This document shows, in pieces, positions 1,039 through 12,851 of a stretch of DNA of 64,000 nt (position 1 is the first letter of the stretch; each line of letters begins with the position of its first letter). This stretch comes from Roseovarius arcticus (GTDB lineage: Bacteria; Pseudomonadota; Alphaproteobacteria; Rhodobacterales; Rhodobacteraceae): the NCBI RefSeq assembly GCF_006125015.1, contig NZ_SZZN01000001.1, positions 2,604,001 through 2,668,000 of the forward strand, written 5' to 3'. A program made the translations under genes and the position numbers. The notes beneath the pieces are model-generated. The model ran no database searches. It saw nothing but the letters and a program-made list of their open reading frames with translations, and was not told the origin of the DNA.

Positions 1039-1809
1039 ATGCAATCAAACACTCGTGCTTACGGGTCAGGTTCTGACAATCTCGATACGTCTGAAACAGC
1101 AAATCGGTCGGTGCGTGCCGATTGGAGTGCCTATGCAACGGCCTATGATCTGCTGTCCGAGCACAACCCTGAGTACCAAGCGATACTGCACAACTTTGAG
1201 GCTTTCCTTGCGACGATAGAGACGCCGCGCTTGATCTATGACATCGGCGGCGGCACCGGAAACTACACCGAGATCGCGGCCCGTGCTTGCCCGGAGAGCG
1301 AGATATGTCTCGCAGAGCCCGACGCTGGCATGATCGGGGCGGCGCGGTCCAAATTGGCAGCCCATAAAAATATCAGTTTTGAAGCTCTACCGCTTGAAAA
1401 TATCGTAGCGCGAGGCACAGCTGATCTTGTCGTCTGCGTTCACGCGCTATACGCGATGCCCGCGCCAAAGCAGCGACTCGAGGATATGCGTCGGTTGCTC
1501 CGTCCAGGCGGTTGGCTCTACCTCGTCGATCTCGGTCGTCACATGAACGTGGCCGACTGGCGCGACTACCTGTTCTCACAGTTGAAAAAGAAACAGGGGT
1601 TGGCAGGCGCGCTCGGGGTCTTCTGGCAGGGTAGAGAGATCGCCAAGCAGAACAAGGCCATCCTCAAGGCACAAAAGAACGGCGTCTACTGGACGCACAC
1701 CGGGGCCCAGATAGCATCCGCTGCCACCGCAGCTGGTTTCGAAATCCAGAGACAAGAAGTCGTTTATCGTGGCTACAGCGACCTACTCGTATGTCATGCC
1801 AAGCCATAG
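1039..1809 (+). CDS. SAM-dependent class I methyltransferase
   Basis: 256 aa. Motif I is clear at residues 68-78 (DIGGGTGNYTE), followed by the acidic ribose-binding residue in LAEPD (about 93) and the late-strand motif LLRPGGWLYLVD (about 153-164), so the fold is a Rossmann SAM methyltransferase, cytosolic. The substrate cannot be read from the sequence. The stop lies 24 bases before the start of the FeeM-like acyl synthase on the same strand, with a ribosome site (AGGA) between them, so the two are probably one operon. This suggests, as inference only, that the enzyme methylates the acylated product or its amino-acid head group. A small-molecule methyltransferase of another pathway is the alternative. 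Confidence 0.8.
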   Translation: MQSNTRAYGSGSDNLDTSETANRSVRADWSAYATAYDLLSEHNPEYQAILHNFEAFLATIETPRLIYDIGGGTGNYTEIAARACPESEICLAEPDAGMIGAARSKLAAHKNISFEALPLENIVARGTADLVVCVHALYAMPAPKQRLEDMRRLLRPGGWLYLVDLGRHMNVADWRDYLFSQLKKKQGLAGALGVFWQGREIAKQNKAILKAQKNGVYWTHTGAQIASAATAAGFEIQRQEVVYRGYSDLLVCHAKP

Positions 1810-1833
1810 TGCGCACGGGCAATAGGATCGAGC

Positions 1834-2523
1834 ATGAACGAACAAGTTATCGACGCGTTGAAGCACGTCCGCTACAAAGTTCTAACTGACAGCAAAGACC
1901 TCGAAAATCTATATCGCTTGCGTTACAAATGCTACCGTGCCGGACGATCGATCGCCGAGAACGAGCTTGGCATCATGACCGACGCATTCGACGAGACCGC
2001 GAATTGCGTCCATGTCGCGGTTGAAATGGACGGGGAGATTTTGGCGTCGGTGCGCCTCCATTTAATGTCCAAGCTTTCGTTCACATCGCCGACGCTGGAG
2101 GTGTTCCCCGAAATTCTGGATAATCTCACGCGCGGACAAACGATCCTTGATGCGACCCGTTTTGTAATCAACCCAGCGGCCCGCAAAAAGCGTGTGCCAC
2201 TGCATTTTTTGGTCCTGCGCATCCCGTTTCTCGCGACGATGTTCTACGACATCGACTTGGCCCTTGCTCCGGTGCGGGCCGAACATACCGCGTTCTACCA
2301 ACGCTACCTCGGCTATGAATTGGCGATGGGACCACGCAGCTACCCGGGATTGAGAAAGCCCATCCAGCTTCTGACCGCTGAAGTTCGCGAACAGCGCGCC
2401 GCGGTTCTGGCACGCACACCAGTTTTCGGTCCGGTGAACGAAATCCCACAATCCGATATTGCGTTTCCAGACCTATCAGAGGTTTACGCCGCTTCAAAGT
2501 ATGGCAGTTTCAAGACGGCGTGA
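1834..2523 (+). CDS. FeeM-like N-acyl amino acid synthase (autoinducer-synthase fold)
   Basis: 229 aa. The N-terminal RLRYKCYRAG (residues 28-37) and DATRF (106-110) match the layout of the GNAT-related N-acyl amino acid synthase FeeM and acyl-homoserine-lactone synthases, which join an acyl-ACP-derived fatty acid to an amine. The late VRAEHTAFYQRYLGYE region fits the family's acyl-pocket segment. No membrane segment or signal is visible, so it should act in the cytosol on acyl-ACP. It follows the methyltransferase closely. Its 3' end abuts a decayed IS5 element, so any original downstream partner may be lost. The family call is fairly firm; the product (acyl amino acid, acyl amine or lactone) is unknown. 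Confidence 0.7.
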   Translation: MNEQVIDALKHVRYKVLTDSKDLENLYRLRYKCYRAGRSIAENELGIMTDAFDETANCVHVAVEMDGEILASVRLHLMSKLSFTSPTLEVFPEILDNLTRGQTILDATRFVINPAARKKRVPLHFLVLRIPFLATMFYDIDLALAPVRAEHTAFYQRYLGYELAMGPRSYPGLRKPIQLLTAEVREQRAAVLARTPVFGPVNEIPQSDIAFPDLSEVYAASKYGSFKTA

Positions 2524-2554
2524 CCGCCTCCCGTCGCGCGCGTTCGCCACGCCA

Positions 2555-3084
2555 CCACGCTCGGTTCCCATTCTTCGTGGACGACATCTCCGGGTCCCGC
2601 GCGCGCGCCTTGTTCTTCGTCGAGGACGGCGCACCAACCGTAATCGCATCTAGGAGCGTACCCGAGCGCAGCGTGATGGCCTTCTCGACAAGGTGACCGT
2701 TCACCTCAGCGAAGAGCGCCTTGGTCAACTCGCGCCGCTCCAGCAGATGCCGGAAGTTGAGAGTTGTGGACTCATCCACTGCTCGGCATGGGTATGCGAA
2801 GCAATCACTGCAAGGGGGGATGCGGTCATTGCCCAGTTAGATCCCCGCTAAGCGGCGCATCGCCTCGCTGTGATAGAGCGTTTCTTCCGCCGTCGAGTCT
2901 CTCGGCGCATACCAGTTCTGAGCGAAGTAAGCCCGCAGCATTTTCTTAAACAGCATCGGCGGGGGTCCACCCTTCGATCCGGCCTTCGGATAGTAAGGCG
3001 CGATCAGCGCCAGCAGCCGCCCCGCGGCACCACCCCGTCCATCTCAGAAAGGAACAGTTCCCGCCACGTCTGCTTTTTCTTCAT
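2555..3084 (-). pseudogene. IS5-family transposase remnant
   Basis: Minus-strand reading gives the typical N-terminus KKKQTWRELFLSEMDGVV, then the segment YFAQNWYAPRDSTAEE, and finally MDESTTLNFRHLLERRELT and APSSTKNKARARDPEMSST, all familiar from IS5-type transposases. A one-base loss just after VVPRG shifts the frame, a stop interrupts the middle, and the C-terminal catalytic part is gone where the element meets the acyl synthase gene. Dead element. Confidence 0.75.
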
Positions 3085-3288
3085 CTCATGGCGCAGTCCG
3101 GGTATGGCACGTTGTTTCGGCAGTGGAACGGCTCCTCGTGGGAATGGCAAAGCTTACCAAATTACGCCGAAAGAGGCAGATTTTTCATACGTTTTCTACG
3201 GAAGAATCCTCAACGCGCCCTGCGTATGGTCTAATTTCGACACATTTCGACCTTAGCTGTCTACCTTCGCAGAGTTGCAGAGGCAAAC

Positions 3289-4698
3289 ATGACGGATCTC
3301 AACACATTTTGGGCGGCCCGGATCAACTGGTTCAACTCCGATGGTCGCGAACAGAGCATCAAAGATTACATTGACCTTGCCAACCAGCTCATCTGGAAAC
3401 GGCAAGCGAGCTTTCTCGCTGCGGCCATACTGGCGGCGTTCTATTTCAACCCTCTCTCGATTTTTGCGTTCTACGGAATCGTAGCCCTTACCGAAATGCT
3501 CGACTTGCTTCTCGGACGCCAATCAAAGGCTTGGAATGGCCAGGACCCCGTCGTGGGTCAGCAGATCCTCAAGCGCATCGCGATCAACACGGCCGTGAGC
3601 GCGATAGCGATCAGCGTTTTCATCGTCAACATTGCGCTTCAGCAGACTTCGCCAGGGCATTTCACGCCCCTCTTCTTTCTATTCTCTGCATCGGTCTTCG
3701 CGGCGATGTACAATAGCCAAATGAAAGGCATTCTGCTCTTGCGTCTGCTGATCTACGCTTTCGCGTTTCTATACATCGCATTTCTCGATGTGGTCCGCTA
3801 TCTCCCACCAATCAGTTCTGACATTTGGTTGGAGTTCTTCACGATTTTCTTCGTGCTCTACTTCACTGGCGACATATCGGTGAAATTCTACCTCAGCCAC
3901 AAGCAGCGGCTCGCACAGATGAAAATGATCAATGAAGAAAACGAGCGCACTAAGGCTGCCTTGGAGGTTAAGTCACGGTTTCTGGCCACGGTTAGCCACG
4001 AGTTGCGCACGCCGCTGACGTCGATCATCGGATCGCTCGAACTCATCAAGAACGACAGACTTGGCGTGCTGCCCGAGACCCTCAAGCCTGTTTTTAGCAT
4101 AGCAACCAGGAACGGGCATCGCCTCGCTACCCTAATCGATGATCTGCTGGATCTGCAGCAGATCGAGGCCGGCGCGATGGTGTTTCATTTCGAACCGATC
4201 AATGCGAACGATTTGGTACAAGAGGCAGTGGAATCCATCGCAGGTTACGCCAGCAAACTTGGCATCCAAGTTATGTCTGACCCTTGCATTGAAGATTGCC
4301 AGATCAATGGTGATCGCAATCGCTTGATCCAAGTGATGAGCAACCTGCTATCCAACGCTCTGAAGTTTTCCGACGAAGGCGGCGCGGTTAAGGTGCGCGT
4401 CGAAACTCAGGGCGCCCGCATCCGTATTTTGGTCCATGACGAAGGATCAGGTATTCCGGAAGGCGCGAAAGACTGCGTGTTTGGCAAGTTCAGCCAAGTA
4501 GATTCCTCTGATATTCGCAAGGTCGGCGGCACCGGCCTTGGCCTCAACATTGCCAAGCAAATCGTCGAGCGCCACAACGCCATTATCGATTACGTCAGCG
4601 AACCGGGTGTCGGTTCAACCTTTTATATAGAGTTCGACCGGCAGACAGGGGGAGATGACCCGAGCGCCAAGATCAAACCGCTCGCAACGGCGGCCTGA
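3289..4698 (+). CDS. Membrane sensor histidine kinase, orphan
   Basis: 469 aa. Residues about 38-195 hold five to six hydrophobic segments and form a membrane sensor domain with no large periplasmic loop. A helical linker (200-230) leads to the HisKA box FLATVSHELRTPLTS with the phospho-acceptor His at 237. The ATPase follows: N box with NLLSNALKF (352-360), G1 DEGSGIP (384-390) and G2 GGTGLGLN (413-420). It should autophosphorylate and pass phosphate to an unlinked regulator; no response regulator gene is adjacent. It lies between two dead IS elements, downstream of the acyl synthase and upstream of the FadL gene. Sensing of a hydrophobic or membrane-soluble ligand is plausible but unproven. 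The start follows a weak purine stretch (AGAGG). Confidence 0.85.
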   Translation: MTDLNTFWAARINWFNSDGREQSIKDYIDLANQLIWKRQASFLAAAILAAFYFNPLSIFAFYGIVALTEMLDLLLGRQSKAWNGQDPVVGQQILKRIAINTAVSAIAISVFIVNIALQQTSPGHFTPLFFLFSASVFAAMYNSQMKGILLLRLLIYAFAFLYIAFLDVVRYLPPISSDIWLEFFTIFFVLYFTGDISVKFYLSHKQRLAQMKMINEENERTKAALEVKSRFLATVSHELRTPLTSIIGSLELIKNDRLGVLPETLKPVFSIATRNGHRLATLIDDLLDLQQIEAGAMVFHFEPINANDLVQEAVESIAGYASKLGIQVMSDPCIEDCQINGDRNRLIQVMSNLLSNALKFSDEGGAVKVRVETQGARIRILVHDEGSGIPEGAKDCVFGKFSQVDSSDIRKVGGTGLGLNIAKQIVERHNAIIDYVSEPGVGSTFYIEFDRQTGGDDPSAKIKPLATAA

Positions 4699-4847
4699 GG
4701 TGCAGAAATTCCATCGCAGGTGCTGTCAGACCGATTCGAACCAATTTCAGCTAGGACAGGGAGGCTACAATTTAGTCTGCGCAAAGATTGTGCGGTGCTG
4801 TCAGGCAAATGCGAACCGGTCTCTGAAAGAGCAGTGAAGCTGCCCCT

Positions 4848-5186
4848 TATGCCGCGCCGAGATCGCGCCACTCGGCGAGAGCGACAGCCCAGTTCAATTT
4901 CAAATTATCACGTGAGAAAAGGTGGCGTTCCTGATTGAAGAGGTAGTGAACTGAAGAATGAACCGCATCCGCCTGACCCGGCTTCTACAGATCTCCGCGG
5001 GTGAACACTGAACCAAATCTGTTCCACCAGACCCTGACCATCTCGTGACTATTGTCGATGCCACGCTCATGCAGAAGATCCTCCACATCCCGAAGCCAAG
5101 TCCGGACACGGACATATAGCATCACCGCCAAGGGTATAATCTCGGGGCTCGTCTTGAAATAGCGAAAAGGACTGCGTTTTGCTATG
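4848..5186 (-). pseudogene. IS6-family transposase, internally deleted
   Basis: The N-terminal part reads SPFRYFKTSPEIIPLAVMLY, then VRTWLRDVEDLLHERGID, which is the standard IS6 N-terminus. After WWNRFGSVFTRGD the frame jumps, through a deletion, to the family's C-terminal tail with FNQERHLFSRDNLKLN and AVALAEWRDLGAA. The DDE core is lost. The start codon position is ATA rather than ATG in this copy. Confidence 0.7.
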
Positions 5187-5228
5187 TCGCGATGCTAGCA
5201 AGCCGCCCTACCTCGCTCAAGCCGGTTT
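5184..5228. repeat. Inverted repeat copy 1 (IS6 5' end) flanking the fadL-like gene
   Basis: The 34 bases 5195-5228 (CTAGCAAGCCGC to GCCGGTTT) recur exactly, in inverse orientation, at 6562-6595. Similarity continues imperfectly for about 10 bases on the outer side and 15 on the inner side. In this copy the repeat is the 5' end of the IS6 transposase region. Confidence 0.9.
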
Positions 5229-5383
5229 GATCTGACAGTGCCGCGCGACCGCATAGCTCGTCATATCTCAGCTATGGCTTCTGCAACAACGGGCGGCCAT
5301 TCTATATATGTATCATCGGCAACACAGCATTCTGCGGTCTGACAGATTACTGGCAAATTCTCTTGCTAATCTAGGTGTGCCCG

Positions 5384-5403
5384 CCGAGAGTCGCTACTCT
5401 CGG
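5384..5403 (+). promoter_or_regulatory. Stem-loop in the leader of the fadL-like gene
   Basis: CCGAGAGT-CGCT-ACTCTCGG, a perfect 8-bp stem with a 4-base loop, ending 20 bases before the ATG and just before the ribosome site GGTGGAGG. It could modulate translation or mRNA stability; no family of regulator is implied. Confidence 0.35.
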
Positions 5404-5423
5404 TGGAGGTCGCGGACGGGTAA

Positions 5424-6533
5424 ATGACGAAATTTGCTTTGGTACTTGCCATTTGGTTGGGTTTTCTGACGAGTACATCGGCCGTCGCCGGTAATCTTGA
5501 TCGCAATAAGACACCAATCGACCTGATCTTCGATGAAGGCAACCGCGCTGAGCTGTCGATGACTGTGGTCGCCCCCAATGTGACGGGCCGGGACAGCTCT
5601 GGCCATGCAGTCGGCAATGTCGGCGAGGATTTCGGAAGCGTCGCCGCTGGCATAAAGTTGCAGTTCGGGCAGCGCCTGTCTTTCGCGATGATCTACGATC
5701 AACCCTACGGCGTTGACACCCAGTACGGCGGATCGCCGACGACAACCCTCTTCGGTGGCGCTCGCTCCCAAGCGGAGAGCGACGCTTTGACGGTTTTGAT
5801 AAGCTACGACGTCACCGACCGCATTGCCATCTATGGCGGTCCGCGTGTCGTGCAGGCGCGGGGCAATATTACCCTTTCTGGATTGGCCTATGGCCCCCTC
5901 AACGGATACGATGTGCATTTCGCCACTGATAGTGCGTTGGGATATGTCGTGGGTGCGGGCTACGAAATTCCCGAGATCGCATTCCGCGCGGCGCTGACAT
6001 ACCATTCAGATGTCGACTTGGAGATGCAGACTGTCGAAACATTTCCCGGCACCACTCCGATTTCGACCGGACCGACTGGGGCCACGCTGCCTCAGTCGCT
6101 GAAATTTCAGGTGCAGTCCGGAGTGGCTGAGGACACATTGCTGTTTGCCAGCGTTCGTTGGTCCGATTGGAGCAAATTTACGCTGGACCCGAACAGTGCG
6201 GTGACGAACCTAGCAATTCTCGACGATGCATGGACATACGAGATTGGCGTTGGGCGTCGGTTCACCAACAATTTTTCCGCCCGCCTGAGTTACAGCTATG
6301 AACACGAGGAGGGTGAGAAGCTGGTATCACCTTTGGCACCGGCAAAGGGTGGCCAGACCGTAACGCTGGGAGGCATCTATCAGCTGACGCCCCGGATCGA
6401 TATTTCTGGCGGAATAAGCTACACTTGGCTGGGTAAGGCCCCACTTGAAACCTACCCGGAAAATGTAGTGCGCGGCACATTCGACGACAACGGAGCATTT
6501 GGTGCTGGCCTCAGGGTTGGTGTCAGTTTTTGA
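5424..6533 (+). CDS. FadL/OmpP1-type outer-membrane lipid transport protein
   Basis: 369 aa. A signal peptide covers about residues 1-22 (LVLAIWLGFLTSTSAVAG). The rest is beta-barrel in character with alternating hydrophobic strands. It carries FadL-family features such as GIKLQFGQRLSFAMIYDQPYG, the later DVDLEM and RWSDWSKF segments, and a C-terminal aromatic ending in VGVSF, as expected for an outer-membrane barrel. Family members let hydrophobic molecules such as long-chain fatty acids cross the outer membrane. At 369 aa it is shorter than E. coli FadL. The gene lies alone between two inverted IS6 ends (repeats at 5184-5228 and 6562-6606), so it may have been carried there with them. A good ribosome site (GGAGG) precedes the ATG. 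Confidence 0.8.
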   Translation: MTKFALVLAIWLGFLTSTSAVAGNLDRNKTPIDLIFDEGNRAELSMTVVAPNVTGRDSSGHAVGNVGEDFGSVAAGIKLQFGQRLSFAMIYDQPYGVDTQYGGSPTTTLFGGARSQAESDALTVLISYDVTDRIAIYGGPRVVQARGNITLSGLAYGPLNGYDVHFATDSALGYVVGAGYEIPEIAFRAALTYHSDVDLEMQTVETFPGTTPISTGPTGATLPQSLKFQVQSGVAEDTLLFASVRWSDWSKFTLDPNSAVTNLAILDDAWTYEIGVGRRFTNNFSARLSYSYEHEEGEKLVSPLAPAKGGQTVTLGGIYQLTPRIDISGGISYTWLGKAPLETYPENVVRGTFDDNGAFGAGLRVGVSF

Positions 6534-6548
6534 TCAGTCTCGACAACG

Positions 6549-6626
6549 GCAGTATCAGACGAAACCGGCTTGAGCGAGGTAGGGCGGCTTGCTAGTATCG
6601 CGCCATGACGAACCGACAGACCCCAA
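6549..6626 (+). mobile_element. Isolated IS6-family 5' end, opposite orientation
   Basis: Starts with GGCAGTATCAGACG, a degenerate form of the IS6-like terminus at 5239, then the exact 34-base repeat shared with 5195-5228, then an ATG (MTNRQTP) where a transposase would begin. The homology then stops. Only the end of an element survives. Confidence 0.6.
6562..6606. repeat. Inverted repeat copy 2 flanking the fadL-like gene
   Basis: Bases 6562-6595 are the exact inverse of 5195-5228; a few more bases match with scattered differences. Together the pair brackets about 1.4 kb containing only the fadL-like gene. Confidence 0.9.
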
Positions 6627-9757: not shown

Positions 9758-11017
9758 CTATCCCATGAGAAGGCCAGCAACTGGCCTGCCATGTTTGTCC
9801 ACCGCTCTGCTTTCCGCCATGGTGATCACGTGATCCGTCGCCATTTTTGCGCGCTCTGCCTTTGTGCCTTGCAGCGTTATTGGCCCCCCAACCGATACGC
9901 CTATCCGTGTGCCATACACAGAAGCGTTGCCTTGGAGCCTTCTTTCAATGTTCTTCTCGATGATAATCGCAGGCAGTTGGTTTGCAGAATTAACAGCAAT
10001 CAGAAGGGTTGCGTTGTCGGTGTAGGCCATCACGGTTTGGTCAACACCAAGACAATCGGCCGCTACCGCTGAAACATCTTGGAGGAGCGAGACAAACTCT
10101 TGGGGTGAGGATCGCATCTGATCTGCTTCGATACCATCTATGATTGCGGCGAAAACTTGGATGTCTGTCACTCTTGTGCGGGGTGATTGGGTAAGATAAT
10201 TTGAGAAGGCTGTGTGATCGATGAGACTTTTCACAACTTCGAGACGTAACCCGTCGGGCAATTCGAAGCCGTAGCAACGAATTGGACTCCAACCGTATCC
10301 CGTGCCTTCCTGTTTGCCATGGCTCGGCTCTCTCTGCACGTGGATCGCTTTCTGTGCCATCCGCAAGCGGGTGCCTAGCTCTTCAATTATGAATGGCTTG
10401 GTGGCATAATCAGTCGCACCGGCTCGGTAAGCGTCACCCATATGTGAAATGTCGCGCATCGCAGTCAGCATGACGATCGGCGTCTGGCAATATTGGGGTA
10501 ACTGGCGAACACGTTTGCAAAGTTCGATACCATCCATTCCCGGCATGTTGATGTCGAACAAGAGGCAGTCGAAAATCATTCTGGTGTCGGCCAACAATCT
10601 CAGCGCCTGTTCAGCCGATGCAGCAGGAATAACTTCGAAAAAACCTACCTTCGCCGCAATCTTCGGTATTAGCTCCAGAATGAATGGGTCGTCATCGACG
10701 ACAAGAATTCTCATTGAGGCGTTGATAGCCGCGCCCTGCTGTCTGGCCGAGGACTCACAAGAGCGCAGATATCCGGTCTCGTTCCAGTTGCCTTTGGCAG
10801 GTGGGGCTTCGCCGTGATTAATAAAGATGCCAGAGATCAACCGGGCAACAGGCAGCAGGATCACGGCGAAGGAGCCGACCAAGGTGTAAAGGCCTAGCGC
10901 TAGCCAGACTGTTGCACCAACGAGAAGGGCAGTAACGGATGCGAGCAGACCCGCAACGGCACCGACCAAGACATATCCAACTATCAAATGAGCATCTCCG
11001 ACAATTCGATCTACCAT
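9758..11017 (-). CDS. Membrane-anchored response regulator with degenerate GGDEF-like C-terminus
   Basis: 419 aa. Residues about 10-66 form two strongly hydrophobic segments, unusual for a response regulator. A linker leads to a receiver domain starting MRILVVDDDP at 102, with the phospho-acceptor Asp near 154 (LLFDINMPG), Thr in VMLTA and Lys 207 (YATKPF). The C-terminal 200 residues end in RIGVSVGGPI and AKMATDHVITMAESRA, which recall the closing strands and helix of GGDEF domains, but no GGDEF signature is visible, so cyclase activity is unlikely. An alternative start at 10714 would give a plain soluble regulator, but the whole upstream frame is open and hydrophobic. No kinase gene is adjacent. 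Likely a membrane-localised phospho-relay output or sink. Confidence 0.75.
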   Translation of the reverse strand: MVDRIVGDAHLIVGYVLVGAVAGLLASVTALLVGATVWLALGLYTLVGSFAVILLPVARLISGIFINHGEAPPAKGNWNETGYLRSCESSARQQGAAINASMRILVVDDDPFILELIPKIAAKVGFFEVIPAASAEQALRLLADTRMIFDCLLFDINMPGMDGIELCKRVRQLPQYCQTPIVMLTAMRDISHMGDAYRAGATDYATKPFIIEELGTRLRMAQKAIHVQREPSHGKQEGTGYGWSPIRCYGFELPDGLRLEVVKSLIDHTAFSNYLTQSPRTRVTDIQVFAAIIDGIEADQMRSSPQEFVSLLQDVSAVAADCLGVDQTVMAYTDNATLLIAVNSANQLPAIIIEKNIERRLQGNASVYGTRIGVSVGGPITLQGTKAERAKMATDHVITMAESRAVDKHGRPVAGLLMG

Positions 11018-11870: not shown

Positions 11871-12851
11871 ATGGAACACAATTTTGATCGCTCCAACGAG
11901 CGTATGGCTACTGCGATACAATTGGTGAGCACTTCTGCTGATGCTCGGGAGCAACTGAAAGCAGAATACCACAAGCGGTCTGATGCCGCGTTTGCCCCAG
12001 AGACGTTGAGAAATTTCCGACAGATTACAGCCATGTTCTGCAGTTGGTGTCGTGAAAAAGGCTATGATGCAGCCCCTCCGGTCGACCCCAAGGCGGTAGC
12101 CGCTTATGTTGATTACCTAGGAGGTAAGGTTAGGAGCACTGCGATTGGGGTCCGGCTTTGGGCTATCTCGGAAATGCATAGGGCTCAATTTCAGCCTTCA
12201 ACCTGTAACCACCGGCTAGTCGAACTAGCGGTGAAGGCAGTGAAGCGTAAGTATGGTGCTGCAGTCCGACTAGCGCCGCCACTTGGAAAAAAAGAGATGA
12301 TTGAGACAATTCAGAAATTAGGTAGCAGCCGATTGGAATTACGAGACAAGGCAGTACTCTGGGTTGCAACTGACAGTGGGTGTCGTGCGTCCAAGATTGT
12401 GGCTTTCAAGGTGAAAGATCTGGTTCGCCAAGATGACGGATCGAGCTTGCTCTATGTTAGCAGATCCAAAACAGATCCGTACGGAGAGGGTGCCTATTCA
12501 TTTTTATCTGAGGCCGGGACGGAGGCTGTTTTGCGCTGGATTGAAACCGCTGGATTAGAATCTAGCGACCCTATTATTACCAAATCGCAGCCCAACTCGC
12601 AAATCCGGCACATGGACCCCGCAACGATATCGCGCATTCTCAAGCGATGCACAGGGCGATCGGAAGTATCTGCGCACAGCACGCGTGTAGGCGGAGTTCA
12701 AGATGCTTTCAGGCTTAGATGTGATCTATCATCCATCATGGTCGCAGGTCGCTGGAGTTCGCCCGAAATGCCTGACCGTTACGGTCGGCGCATCATGGCA
12801 AGCCAATCGACTTCAGCTCAAGTATCGGCTGCGTTCAGCAAATCACGGTGA
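11871..12851 (+). CDS. Tyrosine recombinase / site-specific integrase
   Basis: 326 aa, full length for a simple tyrosine recombinase. The N-terminal core-binding domain (about 40-130) precedes a catalytic domain with Arg 172 (GCRASKIVAF), Lys 200 (SRSKTDPYGEG), His 269 and Arg 272 (SAHSTRVG), Trp 295 (AGRW) and nucleophile Tyr 304 (PDRYGRR). The set looks catalytically complete. An AGGAG ribosome site precedes the ATG. It resembles the stand-alone integrases of Rhodobacteraceae islands and plasmids. Surrounded by IS debris; it may have driven one of the insertions here, but no attachment site is obvious beside it. Confidence 0.85.
   Translation: MEHNFDRSNERMATAIQLVSTSADAREQLKAEYHKRSDAAFAPETLRNFRQITAMFCSWCREKGYDAAPPVDPKAVAAYVDYLGGKVRSTAIGVRLWAISEMHRAQFQPSTCNHRLVELAVKAVKRKYGAAVRLAPPLGKKEMIETIQKLGSSRLELRDKAVLWVATDSGCRASKIVAFKVKDLVRQDDGSSLLYVSRSKTDPYGEGAYSFLSEAGTEAVLRWIETAGLESSDPIITKSQPNSQIRHMDPATISRILKRCTGRSEVSAHSTRVGGVQDAFRLRCDLSSIMVAGRWSSPEMPDRYGRRIMASQSTSAQVSAAFSKSR

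Follow-up and report, generated by a model that had tools for sequence, protein, structure and literature searches.

The stretch examined here (the window) comprises 64,000 nucleotides of the Roseovarius arcticus genome (assembly GCF_006125015.1, contig NZ_SZZN01000001.1, positions 2,604,001 to 2,668,000, forward strand; host genome 4.2 Mb). Near its left end, genes for a methyltransferase, a FeeM-type N-acyl amino acid synthase and a membrane histidine kinase follow one another on the same strand, and these three are a real, intact and conserved module. The genes and the stretch that parts the second from the third are:

1039..1809, plus strand: class I S-adenosylmethionine-dependent methyltransferase (MT), 256 aa; Pfam Methyltransf_23/12/25/11
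1834..2523, plus strand: FeeM-type N-acyl amino acid synthase (NAS) of the acyl-homoserine lactone (AHL) synthase/GNAT fold, 229 aa; PF21926
2524..3288, no strand: debris parting FeeM from the kinase, 765 bp; the gap is 130-307 bp in relatives
3289..4698, plus strand: membrane sensor histidine kinase (HK), 469 aa; HisKA and HATPase_c

The methyltransferase and synthase genes

A first-pass annotation, made from the DNA letters alone, had proposed a circuit of MT, FeeM, HK and a FadL-type gene further downstream. All four open reading frames (ORFs) were found where it had placed them, with no internal stops, and the 24 bases reported between MT and FeeM were seen, both genes being on one strand. 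In one of the 26 related loci described below, that of Carideicomes alvinocaridis (L028:9191-10687), MT and FeeM form a single open frame without a stop.

The FeeM product matched PF21926 with 128.5 bits (2.6e-37; curated cut-off 27), while its score against PF00765, 21.3 bits, fell under the cut-off of 24; one FeeM of R. tolerans exceeded the latter with 28.3 bits. The fold expected for the product of 1834-2523, that of the NAS and AHL synthases, was borne out by its structure model, for which FeeM (2G0B) was the best match, ahead of AHL synthases, at 12-14% identity to the 2G0B chains. For MT, the AlphaFold2 model (pLDDT 86) has a class I fold, and neither it nor a comparison with PDB sequences pointed to a substrate.

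A second copy of MT and FeeM, with 97% DNA identity, lies in the same genome at about 3.01 Mb, 0.41 Mb off (G000:C1:3012566-3014160). Its FeeM matches that of the window to codon 222 and then runs into debris common to the window; positions 2733-2971 of the stretch between FeeM and HK recur behind it. This copy has no kinase behind it, and two regulators with a REC domain and a degenerate GGDEF domain are found nearby. The one ORF tested in the debris at 2524-3288, which we take to be IS5-like, gave no Pfam match.

Conservation of the trio in Rhodobacterales

An alignment of 27 FeeM proteins was scanned against named genomes, which yielded 185 encoding stretches, and the best 80 of these 185 were analysed. 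Of these, 24 stretches came from Rhodobacterales, at 65-79% identity, and the other 56 were mostly rhizobial, at 30-36%. Two more loci from the genus of the window brought the Rhodobacterales set to 26 distinct loci, not counting the window itself. Flanks were examined up to 10 kb, or less where contigs stop. Four loci (L146, L147, L148 and L151) were left out as their FeeM was identical to that of L020, L022, L024 and L041, respectively, and some of the 26 are close to one another, e.g., L034/L036 and L037/L038.

MT lay immediately upstream of FeeM on the same strand in 26/26 loci, with gaps of 24-71 bp, and HK immediately downstream on the same strand in 25/26, with gaps of 130-307 bp (both measured between aligned ends). 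The sole exception for HK was the second locus of R. tolerans, where a REC domain begins 361 bp past FeeM and the contig stops at 680 bp. The linkage check proposed in the first-pass annotation thus came out in favour of the kinase; the debris that parts it from FeeM in the window, and that may come from an insertion sequence (IS) element, is absent between the two genes in relatives. A LuxI-like protein was found near FeeM in none of the 26 loci.

FeeM at 60-80% identity was also present on three Sulfitobacter plasmids; two of these were read, and both carried the trio. On one plasmid of this genus MT is split by an IS256 transposase (L160:5872-7973), and a second plasmid of the same strain (L161) has the trio with a full-length MT. 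FeeM was found in 6/72 Roseovarius genomes and in 5/295 genomes of the family, in each of the latter with HK (58-100%) 0.2-1.1 kb away. This scattered presence, together with the plasmids, points to horizontal spread of the trio.

Gene order, folds and co-occurrence were observed directly, as was the descent of the FeeM-linked kinases: all 26, that of the window included, formed one clade (support 100/100) in a tree of 54 rows, adjoining two LuxI-linked kinases (94/89; midpoint root). The distance matrices of FeeM, MT and HK correlated (r 0.63, 0.73 and 0.78), none of 2000 permutations equalling these values; shared species history could also give such a correlation.

A kinase family shared with LuxI-like synthases

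The N-terminal part of HK, about 210 aa, is hydrophobic and is followed by HisKA and HATPase_c. The listed matches to solved structures all lay at residue 168 or beyond, within the catalytic half. Members of the HK family were sought in 120 relatives at E <= 1e-60, with up to 13 candidates scored per genome, and in 295 genomes of the family, with up to five. They occurred in 31/72 Roseovarius genomes; one further match, partial and outside the genus, was left out (G114), and distant FeeM matches in G077 (E 6e-4) and G078 (E 2e-6) were not counted. Six of the 31 genomes have FeeM, with HK at 66-100% identity, and the remaining 25 carry HK homologues 40-50% identical to that of the window.

Beside one of these more distant kinases a divergent autoinducer synthase (AIS) was found, a relative of LuxI (PF00765, 44.8 bits). 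A search with AIS at E <= 1e-67, a cut-off set after the gap was visible, matched exactly the 25 FeeM-free kinase genomes, weaker matches in G014, G036 (a FeeM genome), G051, G058, G065, G080 and G113 being left out. At these thresholds a Roseovarius genome has HK if, and only if, it has FeeM or AIS, and never both; the associated Fisher p of 4e-21 is only nominal, since related genomes are not independent. AIS lay 0.1-6.4 kb from the kinase in 24/28 kinase loci; in the other four, one contig was too short to tell and three were second divergent kinases. These last (L136, L141 and L142, from G008, G032 and G055) form one clade, with no synthase near. In 33 further kinase genomes of the family, AIS was within 3.2 kb in 26, on another contig in four and without a match in three. 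AIS matched 127/295 family genomes in all, and matches at 33-60% occurred also in many genomes without the kinase. A methyltransferase was found at none of the 28 LuxI-type kinase loci. The AIS proteins themselves (L118-L145) have some 50 extra N-terminal residues and are linked to regulators with REC and degenerate-GGDEF domains as well as to the kinase family.

The HK family, then, goes with an enzyme of the AHL-synthase fold. The kinase had been taken for an orphan, which was not borne out, since FeeM or the LuxI-like AIS regularly accompanies it across relatives. Between FeeM-linked and LuxI-linked kinases the sensor half is homologous throughout (hhalign 100%; 48% over 212 columns), which fits an AHL-like ligand.

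The circuit had also been described as not of the LuxI/LuxR type. This holds for the genome of the window, where PF03472 (Autoind_bind, of LuxR) had no match at E <= 0.001 with 13 candidates scored, and PF00765 matched only the two FeeM genes, both below the cut-off. The kinase family itself, however, is also paired with LuxI-like synthases in sister species. Nine other FeeM genomes were tested for a LuxR-type domain beside the trio, and one (G169) had it: an Autoind_bind domain directly past the kinase of the FeeM locus (G169:C8:112158-112439).

A sister clade of FeeM, mostly rhizobial

Neither MT nor HK was found near the 56 FeeM relatives at 30-36% identity. In 54 of the 56, a gene on the same strand and at most 1 kb upstream of FeeM encodes a relative of one 771-aa protein; three such proteins were scanned and had PAS, GGDEF and EAL domains, and their N-terminal 210-240 residues look hydrophobic by eye. 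The downstream genes varied among the three rhizobial loci read. A sensor domain common to HK and the rhizobial GGDEF-EAL protein was considered and rejected (hhalign below 1%, like two shuffled controls). FeeM-type enzymes thus accompany two unrelated signalling proteins. No literature linking an N-acyl amino acid synthase with GGDEF was found in a search that covered subscription journals thinly.

The FadL gene and IS remnants

Behind the kinase lie the following features:

5424..6533, plus strand: FadL/TodX-type barrel, bystander; PF03349 at 4e-16
5175..5243, no strand: left arm of an inverted repeat, 69 nt; 86% complementary to the right arm
6547..6615, no strand: right arm of the inverted repeat, 69 nt; brackets the FadL gene with the left arm
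4850..5185, minus strand: decayed IS6-type (IS240 DDE) transposase, middle gone; found by tblastn with an IS6 ORF of the same genome

The transposase remnant matched the IS6 ORF at 76% over residues 1-62 and at 64% over residues 197-235, and the left repeat arm overlaps it. Of the IS elements that had been placed between the genes, the one between HK and FadL was seen, in decayed form, while the stretch between FeeM and HK offered only the ORF without a Pfam match. Matches of the locus to 611-676 kb of its own genome were considered as kinase paralogues and rejected, as they fall on the IS6 debris.

No FadL gene was near FeeM in any of the 26 loci, and one was near a LuxI-type kinase in 1/28. 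FadL homologues were present in 65/120 relatives and in 30 of the 31 same-genus kinase genomes, lying near the kinase in two of these, that of the window and G011. Because it is absent from the 26 loci and bracketed by inverted repeats of an IS-like kind, the FadL gene was judged a passenger and a bystander rather than a member of the module, and its role as an export or import channel, by which the set had been thought to move its signal, was rejected. The case of G011, where a FadL at 61% lies some 2 kb off the kinase, counts against this verdict.

Response regulators and other neighbours

One further gene of possible relevance lies in the window:

9758..11017, minus strand: response regulator with REC and a degenerate-GGDEF-like domain, possible output partner, optional; PF00072, C-terminal domain profile 4e-37

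Another REC and degenerate-GGDEF regulator (L004:12746-13822) stops 180 bases before window position 1, and a short ORF on the minus strand at 331-553 appears by eye to be a fragment of a further one. In the three regulator tails scanned with the Pfam GGDEF model, one gave 20.1 bits (cut-off 23.8) and the other two no match. With a profile of our own, such tails were found near both MT-FeeM copies of the genome, in 7/26 FeeM loci and in 20/28 LuxI-type kinase loci, and in none of 56 rhizobial stretches or seven background stretches of the same genome. REC-type ORFs of whatever kind clustered in 14/26 FeeM loci. The response regulator as a fixed part of the module was rejected on the count of seven loci, and it is regarded as optional.

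Past this regulator, a recombinase of the phage-integrase family (PF00589) is encoded at 11871-12851. Elsewhere in the genome, an ORF of 2816 aa on the minus strand (G000:C1:663345-671795) combines SpvB, FG-GAP, TcdB-mid and RHS repeats, i.e., it is Rhs/Tc-like.

Proposed function and alternative explanations

R. tolerans EL-164 produces N-acyl alanine methyl esters (PMC4582587). In another report, N-acyl amino acid methyl esters (NAMEs) of alanine, 2-aminobutyric acid and valine are given for Roseovarius sp. D12_1.68, and those of glycine for three Loktanella strains (PMC6296433). According to a 2024 paper, candidate genes for the NAME synthase were still lacking. The structure of a NAME needs one N-acylation and one carboxyl methylation, so that FeeM and MT are natural candidate genes. 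R. tolerans DSM 11457, another strain of the species of EL-164, has two MT-FeeM loci, and both Roseovarius and Loktanella are among the genera bearing the trio (L020, L022, L023, L037, L038 and L041).

On these grounds MT-FeeM-HK is probably, in our judgement, a synthase-receptor operon for a NAME, with substrates, methylation site, ligand and output that we infer as follows. A small amino acid, alanine or glycine for instance, would be acylated by FeeM with a fatty acyl group for which acyl-ACP is the expected donor, and MT would methylate the free carboxylate, giving the NAME. The uncharged ester might then exit the cell or remain in the membrane, where the hydrophobic N-terminal domain of HK would sense it. 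HK would pass the signal to REC and degenerate-GGDEF regulators, which lie near the locus here and away from it in many other genomes. Of the activities ascribed to the set at first, making, methylating and sensing a lipid signal gain from the conserved linkage and the chemistry of the same genus, and moving it by FadL, with 0/26 loci, does not. What weighs against a signalling role is that a published study saw continuous NAME production and no distinct transcriptional response to a spike of C16:1-NAME; the study itself notes that constant production could mask a response.

NAMEs made by these two enzymes might instead be an antibiotic or allelochemical, with HK as a sensor for feedback or self-protection and not a cell-cell receptor. 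Their continuous production and the spike without a clear response would suit this, as would the antialgal and antibacterial effects reported for NAMEs. We nevertheless hold it to be unlikely: the kinase family is regularly paired with LuxI relatives (in sister species: by presence in 25/25 same-genus genomes, at 24/28 loci within 6.4 kb and in 26/33 family genomes within 3.2 kb), and in the mostly rhizobial clade FeeM goes with another signalling protein. Less likely still is that FeeM makes some other acylated amine, of an N-acyl-homoserine-like kind or a precursor of a membrane aminolipid, with MT acting elsewhere and the link to NAMEs a coincidence. Characterised NAS enzymes accept several amino acids, the specificity of MT could not be read from its model, and FeeM has its weak PF00765 match of 21.3 bits; however, the closest fold is FeeM rather than an AHL synthase, MT stands with FeeM in 26/26 loci and is joined to it in one open frame in one of them, and no O-acyltransferase was recognised among the 25 largest neighbour clusters, of which one (14 loci) is unnamed.

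That the linkage of the whole set is an accident of IS traffic, as the first-pass annotation had allowed, is very improbable. IS remnants and a duplicated MT-FeeM block are indeed present in the genome, and FadL lies inside inverted repeats; but MT-FeeM-HK is kept in 25/26 loci of many genera, and the gaps are too short for debris. An accident is for these reasons refuted for MT-FeeM-HK, and it stands, most likely, for FadL.

The synthase-receptor operon can be extended to a wider and more tentative proposal: NAMEs made by FeeM and MT would be read by a kinase family that is elsewhere paired with LuxI, the synthase having been swapped and the receptor kept, while the rhizobial sister clade would be wired through PAS-GGDEF-EAL proteins to cyclic di-GMP, placing FeeM signal synthases in two orders. 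The parts and the architecture are each of known kinds; neither the combination, nor the link to NAMEs, nor a NAME-sensing kinase was found in the literature, in which subscription journals were thinly covered. For NAMEs, the locus offers two genes and a candidate receptor where the 2024 paper had none, and if the proposal is true, a molecule without a known role becomes a signal that has its receptor. The pairing of related kinases with two synthase chemistries also offers a natural set for studying the evolution of ligand choice.

Comparison with known systems

Known FeeM/Nas genes are linked to the fee cluster or to exosortase genes. The FeeM of the window shares PF21926 and the fold with these synthases (2G0B) and differs in being linked to MT and HK instead. 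With the NAMEs of R. tolerans EL-164 it has the required chemistry and the genus in common, but these are known as molecules, with no genes assigned in the literature found.

Orphan LuxI systems resemble the trio in having an AHL-synthase-fold enzyme beside a histidine kinase. In roseobacters, an orphan luxI group, I-delta, neighbours a histidine kinase gene (topologies H, I and J), an arrangement likened to LuxN (PMC3824088); the AIS-HK loci seem to be this group of Cude and Buchan (2013). They differ from the trio by their LuxI-like synthase, by the lack of a methyltransferase and by kinases that, within the genus, are 40-51% identical to that of the window.

The other two comparisons are by kinds of parts. 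Systems of the Lqs/CqsS type likewise combine a signal synthase with a sensor kinase, and LqsR is a REC and degenerate-GGDEF regulator, but their signals are alpha-hydroxyketones. In the Phc quorum-sensing system of Ralstonia, the methyl ester produced by PhcB is sensed by PhcS, and the LqsR-like PhcX adjoins the operon; the GGDEF motif of LqsR is degenerate, and the predicted structure of PhcX is almost identical (PMC10653808, PMC8578825). The likeness is in a methyltransferase for a lipophilic methyl-ester signal, a sensor kinase and a nearby regulator of the REC and degenerate-GGDEF kind, and the difference in that Phc esterifies a 3-hydroxy fatty acid. A methyltransferase and a sensor kinase in one cluster, as in Phc, were present in 25/26 loci, with FeeM between them, and an LqsR-like regulator was at 7/26 FeeM loci and near both copies in the genome of the window. 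Judged by this likeness of parts, Phc is most likely the nearest working analogue of MT-FeeM-HK.

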